Source: Alphaproteobacteria bacterium
Lineage (GTDB): Bacteria > Pseudomonadota > Alphaproteobacteria > Micropepsales > Micropepsaceae
Assembly (NCBI GenBank): GCA_019241645.1
Contig: JAFAWQ010000029.1
Span: 62,001 to 126,000 of the forward strand
Length of the DNA: 64,000 nucleotides
Reading direction: 5' to 3'
Program-made: the position numbers and the translations under genes
Shown: positions 7,083 through 56,814 of the stretch, one piece after another
How positions within the stretch are numbered: the first letter of the stretch is position 1
Layout of the letters: each line of letters starts with the position of its first letter
Notes under the pieces: generated by a model
Seen by the model: the letters and a program-made list of their open reading frames with translations, nothing else
What the model was told of the DNA's origin: nothing
Databases searched by the model: none

Positions 7083-7205
7083 CCCTCCCTTGAAAAGGGA
7101 GGGTCGGATCGCGCAAGCGATCCGGGGAGGGATCATGCTACGGAAGGTGAAGATGACCCCCACCCGATCCGCTTCGCGGATCGACCTCCCCCTTTTAGGG
7201 GGAGG
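7083..7205. repeat. Hairpin-ended element R1 between sucA and sucB
   Basis: Left outer hairpin CCCTCCCTT/AAGGGAGGG (loop GAA, 7083-7103). Left inner hairpin GGATCGC/GCGATCC (7106-7123), then GGGGAGGG-ATC-ATG. On the right, CCCCCACCC, inner hairpin GATCCGC/GCGGATC (7166-7182) and outer hairpin CCTCCCCC/GGGGGAGG (7185-7205). The ATG at 7135 opens a 32-codon frame that ends in an ATGA overlap with the sucB start. The left outer hairpin is identical to that of R5. Confidence 0.85.
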
Positions 7206-29391: not shown

Positions 29392-29536
29392 AGCCAAAGG
29401 GCCAAAGTTCCCATTCGAACCTTCGGAAATTGAGGGGGGTGCCCCGTCACTTGCACATCTACATCTTGTGGCTCAATCGGTGCTCGCACATTTGAAGTAC
29501 AGAAATAGGGGGGCGGCGGCCCCCCTGCCTTCACTT

Positions 29537-29665
29537 CCCTCTCCCCCTCCGGGGGAGAGGGATTGAGGGTGAGGGGGAGTTTCGGCGCGAACGCGAACGG
29601 CGAGCGGTTGCTGGCGAAGATCGCCCCCTCACCCCTTGCCCCTCTCCCCCAATGGGGGCGAGGGG
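29537..29665. repeat. GA-rich hairpin-ended element R3
   Basis: Left hairpin CCCTCTCCCCC/GGGGGAGAGGG (29537-29561), then GAGGGTGAGGGGG. The mirrored CCCCCTCACCC precedes the right hairpin CCCC-TCTCCCCC/GGGGGCGAGGGG (29639-29665). It lacks the inner hairpins, so it is a different subfamily from R1, R2, R5 and R9. Confidence 0.7.
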
Positions 29666-29731: not shown

Positions 29732-30241
29732 CTAGCGAACACAAGTGCCTACGAGGCCGCCTAGCTGATCACGGGCAAACCACACTGTCTCCAGCAGCCT
29801 CCCGAACAGCGGGCTGCTGTCTCCTCGCGCGCATCTTGTCCTCCCCCGCTTGCGGGGGAGGTGCGAGCGAGCTCTTTGCGAGCGAGGCGGAAGGGGAAGG
29901 TGCGAGAGAATAACCTCCAGCGCGTAGTCGATGTCCTCGTAGATCGCAATGTTCGGGATGCGCAGCACACGCCAGCCTTTCGATTGCAGGTATGCGTCAC
30001 GGCGCTGATCGTGCGCAATCTCTTCCGCGGTTCCATGTGTCTCGCCATCCACTTCGACGATCAGTTTGCCGGCGTGAATTGCGAAATCCGAGATGTAAGG
30101 ACCGATTGGGTGTTGCCGGCGGAAGTTGTAGCCGATCTCTCGCAGGCTGCGCAGATGCATCCAGAGAATGACTTCGGCTTTCGTCATCTTGCGTCGAAAT
30201 GCCTTGGCTTTTGCCCGAGCGCTCTCTTCCGCCTTCCGCAA
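29732..30241 (-). CDS. DUF559 domain protein (Vsr-like PD-(D/E)XK nuclease fold), in element R4
   Basis: 169 residues from the TTG just after AGGGGGAAGTTCG; GTG 30283 is an alternative. The DUF559 core has Asp52 (SDF), Glu63 and Asp65 (LIVEVDG) and His69, matching the Vsr/REase-like active site. Residues 1-134 lie within R4. Codons about 113-134 read through its inner and outer hairpin sequences (SHLPRKRGR), and 135-169 read into flanking DNA, so the native stop is missing. Function within the element is unknown; a nicking or cleaving role is inferred. Confidence 0.75.
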   Translation of the reverse strand: MRKAEESARAKAKAFRRKMTKAEVILWMHLRSLREIGYNFRRQHPIGPYISDFAIHAGKLIVEVDGETHGTAEEIAHDQRRDAYLQSKGWRVLRIPNIAIYEDIDYALEVILSHLPLPPRSQRARSHLPRKRGRTRCARGDSSPLFGRLLETVWFARDQLGGLVGTCVR

Positions 30242-30336
30242 CGAACTTCCCCCTACCGTCTCGCCGCTTTTTGTTGCGAACACGCTTTCGCGTGCTTCGG
30301 TTCGCGGCGATCCACCTCCCCCGCAAGCGGGGGAGG
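29840..30336 (-). mobile_element. Element R4: hairpin-ended unit carrying a DUF559 gene
   Basis: Both ends are 22-bp hairpins, arms CCTCCCCCGC/GCGGGGGAGG with loop TT on the left (29840-29861) and AA on the right (30315-30336), so they are perfect inverted copies of each other. Inside the gene's 5' end is an inner hairpin with stem GCACGC/GCGTG and GACGGTAGGGGGAAG. At the 3' end is CCTTCCGCCTCGCTCGCA. The same end sequences frame miniature R9 in dnaX. No transposase other than the DUF559 protein is present. Confidence 0.65.
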
Positions 30337-31966: not shown

Positions 31967-32087
31967 CCCTCCCTTGAAAAGGGAGGGTCGGGGCGCGTCA
32001 GCGCTCCGGGGAGGGATCATTTTCATCCGGTGGAGGGACCCCCACCCGGAATGCTTCGCATTCCGACCTCCCCCATTCAGGGCGAGG
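31967..32087. repeat. Hairpin-ended element R5 between purC and purS
   Basis: Left outer hairpin CCCTCCCTT/AAGGGAGGG (31967-31987, identical to R1), then an imperfect inner stem around GGCGCGTCAGCGCTCC and GGGGAGGGATCATT (the ATG of R1 is ATT here). On the right, CCCCCACCC, inner hairpin GGAATGC/GCATTCC and an imperfect outer hairpin CCTCCCCC/GGGCGAGG (32067-32087). Confidence 0.8.
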
Positions 32088-45746: not shown

Positions 45747-45807
45747 CGCACCCTCGGGTTCTCGCTTCCGGTGGGAAGCGGCTCATGGAATAAGGAGAGG
45801 GACAGTG

Positions 45808-46890
45808 ATGAAAGAGGCGCTTTTGCGGGTGGTCGGCAAGGAAAAGGAAGAGGTCTCGGAGCGCAAGCGCGCGCTGGATGCGGCGCTGAGCCAGATCGAC
45901 CGCGCCTTCGGCAAAGGCTCGGTGATGAAGCTGGGGAGCCGCGATCCGGTCACGGAAGCCGACACCGTTTCCACCGGCTCGCTGGGGCTCGATATCGCGC
46001 TCGGCATCGGCGGCCTGCCGCGCGGCCGGGTGATCGAGATTTACGGGCCCGAGTCGTCAGGCAAAACGACTCTGGCGCTGCATGCGGTCGCCGAAGCGCA
46101 GAAGAAGGGCGGCATCGCCGCCTATATCGATGCCGAGCACGCGCTCGATCCCATCTATGCCCGCAAGCTGGGCGTGGATGTCGACGAGCTCTTGATCTCG
46201 CAGCCCGATGCCGGCGAGCAGGCGCTGGAAATCACCGACACCCTGGTGCGCTCCGGCGGAGTCGACATCGTGGTGGTGGATTCGGTGGCGGCCTTGACGC
46301 CGCGCGCCGAGCTGGAAGGCGAAATGGGCGATCAGCTGCCGGGCCTGCAGGCCCGGTTGATGAGCCAGGCGTTGCGCAAGCTCACGGGATCTATCGCGAA
46401 ATCCAACACCATCGTCATCTTCATCAACCAGATCCGCATGAAGATCGGCGTCATGTACGGCAATCCGGAAACCACCACGGGCGGCAACGCGCTGAAATTC
46501 TATGCCTCCGTGCGGCTCGATATCCGCCGCATCGGCTCGATCAAGGACCGCGATGAGGTGACCGGCAACCAGACCCGCGTGAAGGTGGTGAAGAACAAGG
46601 TGGCGCCGCCGTTCAAGCAGGTCGAGTTCGACATCATGTACGGCAAGGGCATCTCGAAAACGGGCGAGCTGCTCGATTTCGGCGTCAAGGCCGGCGCGGT
46701 GGAGAAGTCCGGCTCCTGGTATTCCCATGACGGCACGCGCATCGGTCAGGGCCGGGAAGCCGCGCGCAATTTCCTCGAACAGAACAAGGATATCGCGGGC
46801 CGCATCGAGGCCCAGATCCGGCAGAATGCCGGGCTCGTCAGCGCGGCTCTCGCGCATGGCGACGACCCGGATGGTGGGAGCGCCGACTAA
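45808..46890 (+). CDS. recA: Recombinase A
   Basis: 360 residues from ATG (GTG at 45805 is equally spaced from AAGGAGAGG). Walker [13 protein letters not shown]-type loop blocks and L2 region [15 protein letters not shown] are intact. It forms the DNA-strand-exchange filament and activates LexA cleavage. A GC-rich hairpin after the stop probably terminates it. Confidence 0.98.
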
Positions 46891-47014: not shown

Positions 47015-47471
47015 GCTTCCCCCCTTGTGGGGGAAGCTGTCAGCGGCCGCTTGAGTGGCCGATGACTGAAGGGGGGAAATGACCGTACAACGCGCCCGCG
47101 AATTGCGTTGGAGCATGACAGACGCCGAACGGCGCCTATGGGCGCTTCTACGCCGCAAGAAACTGGCCGGCTACCGCTTCCGAAGACAGGCGCAGATCGG
47201 GCCATATTATGCTGATTTCTTTTGTCCGAAGGCGCGGCTCATCGTGGAAGTGGACGGAGTTTTTCACGGCAACAAGGATCAGGACGAGCGGGACGAAGCA
47301 CGCACGCATTGGCTAGAGGCGCATGGCTGTCGCGTCATCCGCTTCTGGAACAAGCAAGTGTTCATCTATCCGGATCGAGTAGTCGACACGATCTGTGGTG
47401 AGTTGGAAGCCCCCTTCCGTCTCGCTCGCATTGCGCGAGCGAGCCACCTTCCCCCACCAAGGGGGGAAGGT
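47015..47471 (+). mobile_element. Element R6: hairpin-ended unit carrying a DUF559 gene
   Basis: Left outer hairpin GCTTCCCCC/GGGGGAAGC (47015-47037), an inner stem GTCAGCGGCC...GGCCGATGAC, then TGAAGGGGGGAA-ATG where the DUF559 gene starts. After the gene body come CCCCCTTCCGTC, inner hairpin TCGCTCGC...GCGAGCGA and outer hairpin ACCTTCCCCC/GGGGGAAGGT (47446-47471). The reverse complement of the right hairpin closely matches the left one, so the ends are inverted repeats. Same organisation and gene orientation as R4. Confidence 0.65.
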
Positions 47472-47492
47472 GAACAGTACGGATCGGGATGA
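47079..47492 (+). CDS. DUF559 domain protein (Vsr-like PD-(D/E)XK nuclease fold), in element R6
   Basis: 137 residues starting directly after the element's G-run (GGGGGGAA-ATG), which serves as ribosome binding site. Asp46 (YADF), Glu57 and Asp59 (LIVEVDG) and His63 mark the active site. Residues about 111-131 (ending [11 protein letters not shown]) are encoded by the element's right inner and outer hairpins. The stop lies 19 nt outside the element, just before alaS. Likely a DNA endonuclease; proposed to mobilise the element (inference). Confidence 0.8.
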
Positions 47493-54984: not shown

Positions 54985-56814
54985 ATGGACGAGAGCGAGA
55001 CATCCCTGGGCCTTGGATTGGACGAGCCGGCGCAGCCGGCGCGCGCCGAAGCCTACCGCGTGCTGGCGCGCAAATACCGTCCCCAGGATTTCACCGGGCT
55101 GATCGGCCAGGATGCGCTGGTGCGCACGCTTTCCAACGCGTTCGCCACCGGCCGCATCGCGCACGCCTTCATGCTCACCGGCGTACGCGGTGTCGGCAAA
55201 ACGACGACGGCCCGCATCATCGCACGTGCGCTGAACTGCATCGGCCCGGATGGCCAGCGCAAGGAACCGACCATCCATCCCTGCGGCGTGTGCGATCCGT
55301 GTGTGGCCATCGCCGAATCGCGCCACATGGATGTGCAGGAGATGGACGCCGCTTCGCGCACTGGCATCGACGACATCCGCGAGATCATCGAAGGCGTGCG
55401 CTACGCACCGGCCAGCGCGCGCTATAAGGTCTACATCGTCGACGAAGTGCACATGCTGTCGAAACAGGCGTTCAACGGCCTGCTGAAAACACTGGAGGAG
55501 CCGCCGCCGCATGTGAAGTTCGTGTTTGCGACGACAGAAATTCGCAAAGTTCCGGTGACCGTGCTGTCGCGCTGCCAGCGCTTCGATCTGCGGCGCATCG
55601 AGACGCCGGTGCTTGTCGCGCATCTGCGCGGCATCGCGGAAAAGGAAAGCATCGAGATCGAGGACGCGGCGCTGGCGCTGATTGCTCGCGCCGCCGAAGG
55701 CAGCGTGCGGGATTCATTGTCGCTGCTGGATCAGTCCATCGCGCATGAAGAGGCGCACGCCATCACCGCGGAGTCGGTGCGCGGCATGCTGGGTCTGGCG
55801 GACCGCGGACGCGTGCTCGATCTCTTCGAAAAGCTGATGGCGGGCGATATTGCCGCCGCGCTTGCCGATCTTGCGCAACTCTACGATTGCGGTGCCGATC
55901 CGCTGGCGGTGATGCAGGATCTGCTCGAAACCACGCACTTTCTGACCCGCTTAAAGGTGGCGCCGAGCGCGGAAGGATTTTTCGACGGCGGCAGCGCGGA
56001 AGCGAAGCGCGCAGCGGAGATGGCGGCGAAGCTGCCGGTGCCGGCACTCACCCGCGCCTGGCAGATGCTGCTGAAAGGTTTGCTCGAGGTGCGTGACGCC
56101 ACGCGGCCGATTCAGGCGGCGGAAATGGCGCTGGTACGGCTCGCTTACGCCGCCGATCTTCCGCCAACGGACAAACTCGTCCGCGATTTGCTGGATGGCA
56201 GGGAAGGCCAAAGGAATTCGCTCTCTTCCAAAACGGCAGACAAGGCGACGACGCCGGGACCGCGTACTCTGTCGGCAGCACCAGTGCGAAATTATCCTCC
56301 CCCGCTTGCGGGGGAGGAGGACCGCGTAGCGGTGGAAGGGGGAAATGCTGCACAGTCCCCCCTCCGTCTCGCTGCGCTCGACACCTCCCCCGCAAGCGGG
56401 GGAGGATATTTCCGTACGCTTGACGAGCTCGCCGCCTTTGCCGCGCAGAAAGGCGCGCCGGTGCTAAAGGTGCACATCGAGAACGACATGCATCTCATCA
56501 AACTGGAGCCCGGACGGATTGAATTCCGGCCGTCCAACAAAGCGCCGCAATCTTTGGCGGCCGATCTGGCGCAGAAGCTGAAAGACTGGACGGGGTCACG
56601 CTGGGTGGTGAGCTTGTCGCGCGAGGGCGGCGCGCCGACCATCGCGGAAGCGCGCAAGGCCGCGACACAGGCGAAGCTCGATGCCGTCGCGCAGGAACCG
56701 CTGGTGCGTGCCGTGCTGGATCGATTTCCCGGCGCCGAGATTATCGGCGTGCATGACAAGCCGGGCGACGCCGAACTGGCGGCAACAATCGAAAATCCCG
56801 AGGACAGCGCATGA
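54985..56814 (+). CDS. dnaX: DNA polymerase III subunits gamma and tau, with in-frame repeat insertion
   Basis: 609 residues. Walker A GVRGVGKT at 66-73, zinc-binding Cys85, 100, 103, 106, then VYIVDEVHML and the sensor region. Residues about 437-474 (PPPLAGEE to TSPASGGG) are encoded by repeat R9, inserted in frame between the clamp-loader domains and the tau-specific C-terminal region. The tau region resumes at FRTLDELAAFAAQKGAPVLK. The insertion lies in the normally variable linker, so function is probably kept. Confidence 0.96.
   Translation: MDESETSLGLGLDEPAQPARAEAYRVLARKYRPQDFTGLIGQDALVRTLSNAFATGRIAHAFMLTGVRGVGKTTTARIIARALNCIGPDGQRKEPTIHPCGVCDPCVAIAESRHMDVQEMDAASRTGIDDIREIIEGVRYAPASARYKVYIVDEVHMLSKQAFNGLLKTLEEPPPHVKFVFATTEIRKVPVTVLSRCQRFDLRRIETPVLVAHLRGIAEKESIEIEDAALALIARAAEGSVRDSLSLLDQSIAHEEAHAITAESVRGMLGLADRGRVLDLFEKLMAGDIAAALADLAQLYDCGADPLAVMQDLLETTHFLTRLKVAPSAEGFFDGGSAEAKRAAEMAAKLPVPALTRAWQMLLKGLLEVRDATRPIQAAEMALVRLAYAADLPPTDKLVRDLLDGREGQRNSLSSKTADKATTPGPRTLSAAPVRNYPPPLAGEEDRVAVEGGNAAQSPLRLAALDTSPASGGGYFRTLDELAAFAAQKGAPVLKVHIENDMHLIKLEPGRIEFRPSNKAPQSLAADLAQKLKDWTGSRWVVSLSREGGAPTIAEARKAATQAKLDAVAQEPLVRAVLDRFPGAEIIGVHDKPGDAELAATIENPEDSA
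56296..56405. repeat. Hairpin-ended miniature element R9 inside dnaX
   Basis: Ends are the same 22-bp hairpins as R4 (arms CCTCCCCCGC/GCGGGGGAGG; loops TT and AA). Inner left stem ACCGC/GCGGT, then GGAAGGGGGAA-ATG. Eight nt later follows the mirrored TCCCCCCTCCGTCTCGCT, inner TCG...CGA and the right hairpin. This equals the left and right ends of a DUF559-carrying element joined together. 110 bp, no stop in the dnaX frame. Confidence 0.9.

Follow-up and report, generated by a model that had tools for sequence, protein, structure and literature searches.

Within the window, by which is meant the whole stretch of 64,000 nucleotides analyzed, a gene of the DUF559 family lies at the recA-alaS junction (recA at 45805-46890, alaS from 47489), enclosed in an element, R6, that spans positions 47015-47472. 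Read 5' to 3', R6 consists of two hairpins, a G-run, the DUF559 gene, a C-run and two further hairpins. The left outer hairpin (47015-47037, plus strand) has a pyrimidine 5' arm and a purine 3' arm (GCTTCCCCCCTTGTGGGGGAAGC). It is followed on the same strand by an imperfect inner hairpin recognized by eye (47039-47066; GTCAG-CGGCC...GGCCG-TGAC) and by the G-run GAAGGGGG at about 47068-47076, which is an exact mirror of the hairpin purine arm GGGGGAAG and is a candidate for the third strand in an intrastrand triplex. The DUF559 open reading frame (47079-47492, plus strand) encodes a predicted Vsr/EDxHD-fold nuclease of 137 aa. The right-hand features are oriented on the minus strand: a C-run at 47410-47417 (CCCCCTTC on the plus strand, GAAGGGGG on the minus strand), identified by eye as the candidate right third strand and located within the 3' tail of the reading frame, an inner hairpin at 47421-47443, and an outer hairpin at 47445-47472 that is an inverted copy of the left outer hairpin. 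Since the reading frame continues through this right end, the C-terminal tail of the protein is translated repeat, a feature also present in other members of the DUF559 family.

A second DUF559 element of the window, R4 (29840-30336, minus strand), has the same layout, with its DUF559 domain at 29897-30220 on the minus strand and its outer hairpins at 30315-30336 and 29840-29861. The sequence CCTTCCG(T/C)CTCGCTCGCA is common to both elements. Where a hairpin is listed on either side of an element, the left and right loop sequences are in most cases reverse complements of each other, so that the two ends are inverted copies. In addition, four gene-less doublets with an architecture like that of R6 were recognized by eye in the window: one at 56295-56405 with outer hairpins as in R4 (CCTCCCCCGCTTGCGGGGGAGG), one at 7083-7205 composed of a hairpin, inner hairpin and G-run followed by a C-run, inner hairpin and hairpin, one at 31967-32087 that resembles it, and one at 29536-29665 of the type CCCTCTCCCCC...GGGGGAGAGGG plus GGGTGAGGGGG. 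The shared order of parts in R6 and R4, the inverted ends, the common 3' boundary and the smaller gene-less elements had all been proposed in an earlier note on this DNA, and each is borne out by the sequence; the extent given there for R6 requires a small correction, as its right hairpin ends at 47472, not 47471. The home genome contains five DUF559 genes, all five with such hairpins on both sides, and four of the five pass the threshold for a left/right inverted repeat described below (L003 fails).

The window protein is a clear member of its family, scoring 122.6 bits (E 8.6e-36) against PF04480 (DUF559), for which the curated cut-off is 20.6, and its score of 22.3 bits against the Vsr model TIGR00632 is far under the cut-off of 97.85. 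An AlphaFold2 model (pLDDT 76, pTM 0.68) was compared with known structures using Foldseek, which returned 3hrl, the DUF559 protein NGO0050, the homing endonuclease I-Bth0305I (3r3p, E 2.7e-4) and, more weakly, 1vsr (E 8.8e-3); a Vsr-like nuclease fold had been ascribed to DUF559 in the earlier note, and 3r3p is the closer match. A PDB profile search gave 3hrl (6e-38) and 3r3p (2.9e-5), which makes I-Bth0305I the closest non-DUF559 structure both by sequence profile and by fold; matches to cholera-toxin B and related chains (E 0.017 to 0.11) and to PvuRts1I (0.35) in the same search were taken as chance. Residues of catalytic type (E17, D46, E57, D59 and H63 in A1 numbering) are invariant across 31 sequences, and PADLOC matches are weak. 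EDxHD homing endonucleases are described as using a restriction-enzyme-like, metal-dependent mechanism (PMC3943268). Among Xanthomonas DUF559 genes (20 of 22 long enough for the comparison), differences at the three codon positions amount to 0.093, 0.085 and 0.241; the frequency of differences at third positions is thus 2.6 times that at the other positions, which indicates that the protein is kept by purifying selection.

The generality of the hairpin framing was evaluated in a genus sample of 37 genomes, 29 of which have a DUF559 match (68 rows in all). From these, 54 loci were used (five from the home genome, 29 fetched by search and 20 by region); three of them gave no tblastn match, and in 50 the flanks were long enough for the comparison. 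The left/right inverted repeat in the 200-bp flanks exceeds the 99th percentile of shuffles at 40 of these 50 loci, compared with 6 of 150 pseudo-gene positions, and the left/right end match averages 29.5 for true pairs against a maximum of 19.4 over 5000 re-pairings. The two ends of one element are therefore cognate. To these were added 80 named multi-phylum loci among the matches listed and 29 from an alphaproteobacterial class sample, and a strict test was applied that calls for a perfect pyrimidine-arm hairpin, its arm no shorter than 7, in the 250 bp next to the DUF559 gene; as controls, 559 pseudo-gene positions were taken from the multi-phylum and class sets. Such hairpins are present on both sides at 88 of the 153 DUF559 loci tested and at 0/559 controls, and on at least one side at 131/153 loci and 14/559 controls; removal of two loci duplicated across the sets changes the figures to 87/151 and 129/151, respectively. 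A general lack of flanking hairpins at DUF559 genes, one of the two outcomes that the earlier note had named as refuting its view, is thus not what was found. A cruder inverted-repeat score placed 72 of 108 loci above the shuffle threshold, but 61 of the 559 natural controls exceed it as well, and this score is therefore not relied on as main evidence.

According to record titles, the named loci with hairpins on both sides belong to Alpha-, Beta-, Gamma- and Deltaproteobacteria, Chloroflexi, Planctomycetota and Bacteroidetes, as well as to MAGs of Thermodesulfovibrionia (Nitrospirae-like), Omnitrophota and Gastranaerophilales; as many of these loci come from MAGs, single cases may be mis-binned. 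A perfect pyrimidine-arm hairpin within 250 bp is found on neither side at 22 of the 153 loci, and all six divergent, low-scoring DUF559-like genes tested are without hairpins on either side. The latter (L056 and L059-L063) form a short divergent DUF559-like family in the genus, with scores below about 76 bits and often as the sole copy of the genome, and represent a different lineage, possibly a host gene. In Neisseria gonorrhoeae, the species from which structure 3hrl comes, TM-like palindromes flank the DUF559 gene on both sides. Taken together, the pairing of DUF559 genes with palindromes is real, general and cognate.

The common form of the ends, CCCTCTCCC-n-GGGAGAGGG-TT-GGGGTGAGGG, is that of the PIT/BoxC/TM motif, whose consensus is approximately CCCTCTCCC-n-GGGAGAGGG-TTA-GGGTGAGGGG (Hoyne et al.; Holder et al. 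2015, PMC4666352). As described in the latter paper, this motif combines a C/T-G/A hairpin with a third G-run, is intergenic, occurs in inverted pairs and is very widespread, having been reported in more than 260 genomes with 23 copies in E. coli K-12. The same paper states that the E. coli motif folds as an intrastrand triplex in vitro, that a stable triplex was not found in vivo by DMS footprinting, and that neither the function nor the means of spread was known and a mobility gene had not been found (PMC4666352). Among the element ends studied here, 180 have an arm usable for a test of the G-run, and 137 of these are not mirror-symmetric. The third strand of a class II triplex runs antiparallel to the purine arm, and it is therefore expected to be a mirror of that arm. 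Within the 137 asymmetric ends, the mirror is the better fit for the G-run in 69 and a direct copy in 12, and the two tie in 56; at the left end of R6, the fit is 8/8 for the mirror and 6/8 for the direct copy. Judged by their sequence, the ends of DUF559 elements conform to the PIT/BoxC/TM layout, with a pyrimidine-purine hairpin and a putative mirror purine third strand.

The E. coli K-12 locus sapF-ycjD-fabI (L234; positions of note 578-931 and 1097-1133) contains a DUF559 gene, ycjD. A degenerate CACCCTCTCCC...GAGGGGG stretch lies at the 3' end of ycjD, and a full TM motif is located about 160 bp downstream of the reading frame. YcjD looks like a decayed member of the DUF559-palindrome family.

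Across genomes, the ends vary with the nuclease they enclose. For 44 genus elements, the end similarity to the element whose protein is closest in another genome stands at a median relative rank of 0.07, where 0.5 is expected, and the rank is below 0.2 for 38 of the 44. The correlation between protein and end similarity is 0.30, a value matched by none of 2000 permutations. End similarity is 0.54 for similar proteins, 0.38 for pairs from the same genome and 0.32 for dissimilar proteins; because end similarity tracks the protein, and same-genome pairs are close to dissimilar ones, the ends follow the nuclease and not the host.

Gene-less palindromes dispersed in the genomes show a related pattern. 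Palindrome types were assigned by reading, and exact types (alpha and gamma) as well as a short core were used for counts. In the seven genus genomes with an alpha-type DUF559 gene, the alpha palindrome is present in 2 to 48 copies, compared with a median of 1 in the other 30 (p 0.002), and the gamma palindrome, with 5 to 88 copies in four genomes carrying the matching DUF559 gene, is commoner there than in the other 33 (p 4e-5). Across the 37 genomes, removal of the elements' own ends gives p values of 0.012 for alpha and 6e-5 for gamma. When the borderline loci L037 and L038, whose ends are similar and not identical, are added, the gamma test is weaker and remains positive (p 1e-4, or 0.0016 without own ends). 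Reversed-pattern controls for the exact palindromes are near or at zero. Among the matches listed, alpha palindromes form plus/minus pairs approximately 100-145 bp apart. The 88 gamma copies of one genome (G003) are mostly outward pairs (minus, then plus) about 68 bp apart, an orientation opposite to that of DUF559 ends, and in two Sinorhizobium loci (L197 and L198) the DUF559 gene is bordered left and right by palindrome pairs with a similar outward pairing. These pairs look comparable to rhizobial RIME elements, which are, to our knowledge, gene-less repeats without an assigned enzyme. Palindromes are also numerous in some genomes without a matching gene: 160 alpha palindromes were counted in G035, where the DUF559 found is of delta type only, 39 in G004, where no alpha-type DUF559 was found, and 24 in G029, where no DUF559 was found at all.

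A class-wide comparison of the core palindrome with its reversed control covered 115 alphaproteobacterial genomes, approximately one per family. The median log2 ratio of palindromes to reversed control is +1.04 in the 30 genomes with DUF559 and -0.26 in the 85 without (p 3e-9), and an excess of at least 10 copies occurs in 19/30 and 8/85 of them, respectively; four of the 30 genomes with DUF559 show no palindrome excess. Matches to the Y1 transposase family PF01797 are absent from the home genome (0 matches; the control is positive in 5 of 14 genomes), so that RAYTs are not the mover of the palindromes here.

Sites with and without the element were compared at several junctions. At recA-alaS, 30 genus loci were fetched, and DUF559 is present in one of 28 readable junctions, that of the home genome; by eye, a gene-less doublet occupies the junction in L009 and a single hairpin in L007, L020 and L034. 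At the Xanthomonas hppD-hmgA junction, DUF559 is present in 22 of 30 loci, and by eye six of the eight loci without the gene have a single palindrome at the place of the element, one a decayed right end (L211) and one nothing (L228). At the Sphingobium nrdA-nrdB junction, readable in 29 of 30 loci, nine loci carry the full element, nine a single palindrome and 11 neither. Sites without the element, which the earlier note had asked for, are thus found at recA-alaS (27/28), hppD-hmgA (8/30) and nrdA-nrdB (20/29). The lone palindromes are compatible with plain deletion between repeats, and the intergenic palindrome retained at such sites is also an element end, so that target and end are indistinguishable. 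The full Sphingobium elements belong to two DUF559 subfamilies about 60% alike that are interleaved in sister species. The site states at this junction require a minimum of 11 changes on the host tree. All but one of 200 shuffles give more changes, and because the states are thus clustered on the tree, vertical descent also contributes. In Xanthomonas, gene and host distances are weakly correlated (Mantel r 0.34, p 5e-4).

Several observations speak against free transposition of the gene-bearing copies. Among the genus loci fetched, DUF559 genes within one genome are at most 58% identical. Among the best 30 Sphingobium matches to the subfamily of the nrdA-nrdB site, a list that therefore favors the sharing of a site, the same site is shared by 46/46 pairs with at least 75% identity, 35/37 pairs at 65-75%, 52/134 at 55-65% and 1/213 at 45-55%. 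No near-identical copies at different sites were detected among the loci fetched from the genus genomes or among the best 30 Sphingobium matches, and apart from the palindrome itself nothing resembling a target duplication was seen. Searches with the window protein gave matches in 36 of 72,556 plasmid records and 2 of 50,697 phage records. Since copies within a genome are at most 58% identical and close relatives occupy one site, the gene-bearing copy looks locus-bound.

Several other sites deserve mention. In one genus locus (L083) and one Sphingobium locus (L246), the DUF559 element follows the nrdA stop codon, with the last residues being ...GETTDYDECLACQ in both; the nrdA site in the two genera is either a shared old site or a case of repeated site choice. 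DUF559 elements also follow the end of an hppD-like gene in L090, L101, L113 and L152 (Xanthomonas), L131 (Pseudoxanthomonas) and L118 (Lysobacter), with an hmgA-like start next in most. The ycjD region is covered in 3333 of 5426 E. coli genomes; three E. coli loci without ycjD (L235-L237) were ruled out as simple empty sites, as efflux genes follow sapF there. Azospirillum offers no site contrast, the same insertion being present in all seven records with at least 80% coverage, and no contrast between presence and absence of the element was found on Sinorhizobium plasmids.

These data bear on several alternative explanations. In the earlier note, the element was regarded as a candidate autonomous mobile unit and DUF559 proteins as mobilizing the palindrome family; read as an autonomous transposon, the whole hairpin-ended element would excise and insert at new sites, with DUF559 as its transposase. 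The pairing of one gene with inverted hairpin termini, which amount to terminal inverted repeats, is real, and sites without the element exist, as at recA-alaS in 27 of 28 readable genus genomes. However, copies fetched from one genome never exceed 58% identity, close copies at different sites are absent from the best 30 Sphingobium matches, no target duplication is seen outside the palindrome, and plasmid and phage records with matches are few, so that an autonomous transposon appears very unlikely. A second possibility is a strict homing endonuclease gene, in which DUF559 would cut a single site per subfamily, the lone intergenic palindrome, and spread by allelic copying, the dispersal of palindromes having another cause. 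The similarity of the fold to I-Bth0305I, closest after the DUF559 crystal structure, the site sharing of the more similar Sphingobium pairs (46/46 and 35/37 among the best 30 matches), the frequent changes between full, single-palindrome and empty states on host trees and the weak agreement between gene and host distances in Xanthomonas all favor such a model. It leaves the enrichment of type-matched gene-less palindromes unexplained, however, the site-sharing figures come from a list that favors this outcome, and vertical descent with deletions accounts for part of the pattern, given the clustering of the Sphingobium site states on the host tree. Strict homing is accordingly regarded as unlikely.

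Another alternative is that DUF559 is a Vsr-like host repair enzyme and that the palindromes around it, be they terminators, regulatory sites or hot spots, owe their spread to a different agent. This would agree with the purifying selection on the Xanthomonas gene, with the occurrence of palindromes in genomes without DUF559, and with the Caulobacter protein VsrA, which is described as having a DUF559 domain and working with a solitary cytosine methyltransferase (PMC12907096). Nevertheless, a repair role predicts neither the matched left and right ends nor the co-divergence of ends and proteins across genomes and the type-matched enrichment, and the Vsr model score (22.3 bits against a cut-off of 97.85) also argues against it; we consider this explanation distinctly unlikely. 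Chance framing resulting from G+C-rich composition or intergenic hairpins has almost no probability left: background hairpins do occur in G+C-rich genomes, and the crude score was passed by 61/559 controls, but hairpins on both sides were found at 0/559 controls, reversed-pattern controls for the exact palindromes are near or at zero, and such an artefact is refuted by the end matching, the two-sided hairpin test and the end-protein co-divergence.

The explanation that we regard as probable, with moderate confidence, is a partnership between palindrome and nuclease, in which a RAYT-like cognate nuclease that is not an HUH enzyme would act on triplex palindromes. Each end is a PIT/BoxC/TM-type palindrome with a separate G-run that could fold back as a third strand. 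The DUF559 nuclease would recognize its own palindrome type when single-stranded, for example at replication forks, and cut at the foot of the palindrome. Once cut, gene-less doublets might be copied into other positions, in the way proposed for REPINs and RAYTs, whereas at the nuclease's own locus the cutting of a lone palindrome would lead to the gene-bearing allele being copied in by recombination (homing), and recombination between two palindromes would remove the gene-bearing element again. With homing at its own locus and doublets copied elsewhere, the gene-bearing copy would, in this proposal, stay while the palindromes spread. The action of the nuclease on the palindrome is the step that we infer, and its support is comparative throughout. 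Weighing against the partnership are the genomes rich in alpha palindromes in which no alpha-type DUF559 was found (G035, G004 and G029), the palindrome excess in 8 of 85 class genomes without DUF559 and its lack in 4 of 30 with it, the outward gamma pairs of G003, the 22 of 153 loci with a hairpin on neither side, the option that lone palindromes arise by plain deletion, and the DMS footprinting result for the E. coli motif (PMC4666352). These considerations suggest that the cognate nuclease and the triplex palindromes constitute one old, widespread, locus-bound unit, of which the gene-less palindromes are the dispersed part.

Comparison with known systems helps to place this proposed unit. 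PIT/BoxC/TM sequences represent the same motif class, and the difference here is a nuclease gene between two copies. REPIN/RAYT systems likewise consist of palindromes in inverted doublets, each type being tied to its own nuclease gene, and RAYTs are described as IS200/IS605-derived Y1 transposases, each of them distinctive and present once per genome (Bertels and Rainey 2011, PMC3116915). REPIN/RAYT palindromes are described with a GTAG or CGTC tag at the foot (PMC3733652). The DUF559 genes fetched from any one genus genome are similarly distinct single copies, at most 58% identical. The differences are a Vsr/EDxHD fold in place of HUH/Y1 and a palindrome that is a triplex motif. The absence of an HUH enzyme means that this is not a REP-RAYT system by membership; by analogy, it may work like one. 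I-Bth0305I shares the EDxHD fold, the catalytic-type residues and the presence or absence at a fixed site, but it is described as belonging to a mobile intron and having long DNA-binding regions (PMC3943268), in contrast to DUF559, which is a single small domain between palindromes, intergenic and without an intron or intein. Vsr and Caulobacter VsrA are alike in the 1vsr fold and, for VsrA, in the DUF559 domain itself (PMC12907096), whereas the DUF559 protein here is far below the Vsr cut-off, is framed by repeats and is not paired with a methyltransferase gene. Unlike insertion sequences and transposons, with which the terminal inverted repeats are shared, near-identical copies at different sites were not found among the loci fetched.

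The broader proposition, to which we would assign an even chance, is that DUF559 nucleases are dedicated enzymes of PIT/BoxC/TM palindromes across bacteria, reading the intrastrand triplex without an HUH, DDE or recombinase enzyme, with YcjD as a decayed member. The statement in the earlier note that no such system had been described holds, within the open-access PMC papers searched, for the link between DUF559 and the palindrome, of which no description was found there; it does not hold for the palindrome, which is the PIT/BoxC/TM motif already described in PMC4666352. The presence of DUF559 between two copies of the motif provides a named candidate enzyme for the spread of PIT/BoxC/TM palindromes, and suggests that DUF559 supplies the partner so far missing for a common and unexplained family of bacterial repeats. 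If true, this would assign a role to a large family still listed under "unknown function" in Pfam, would mean that the REP-RAYT arrangement was invented twice, the second time on an unrelated basis, and would establish dispersed repeats moved by a Vsr/EDxHD-fold nuclease as a new class.
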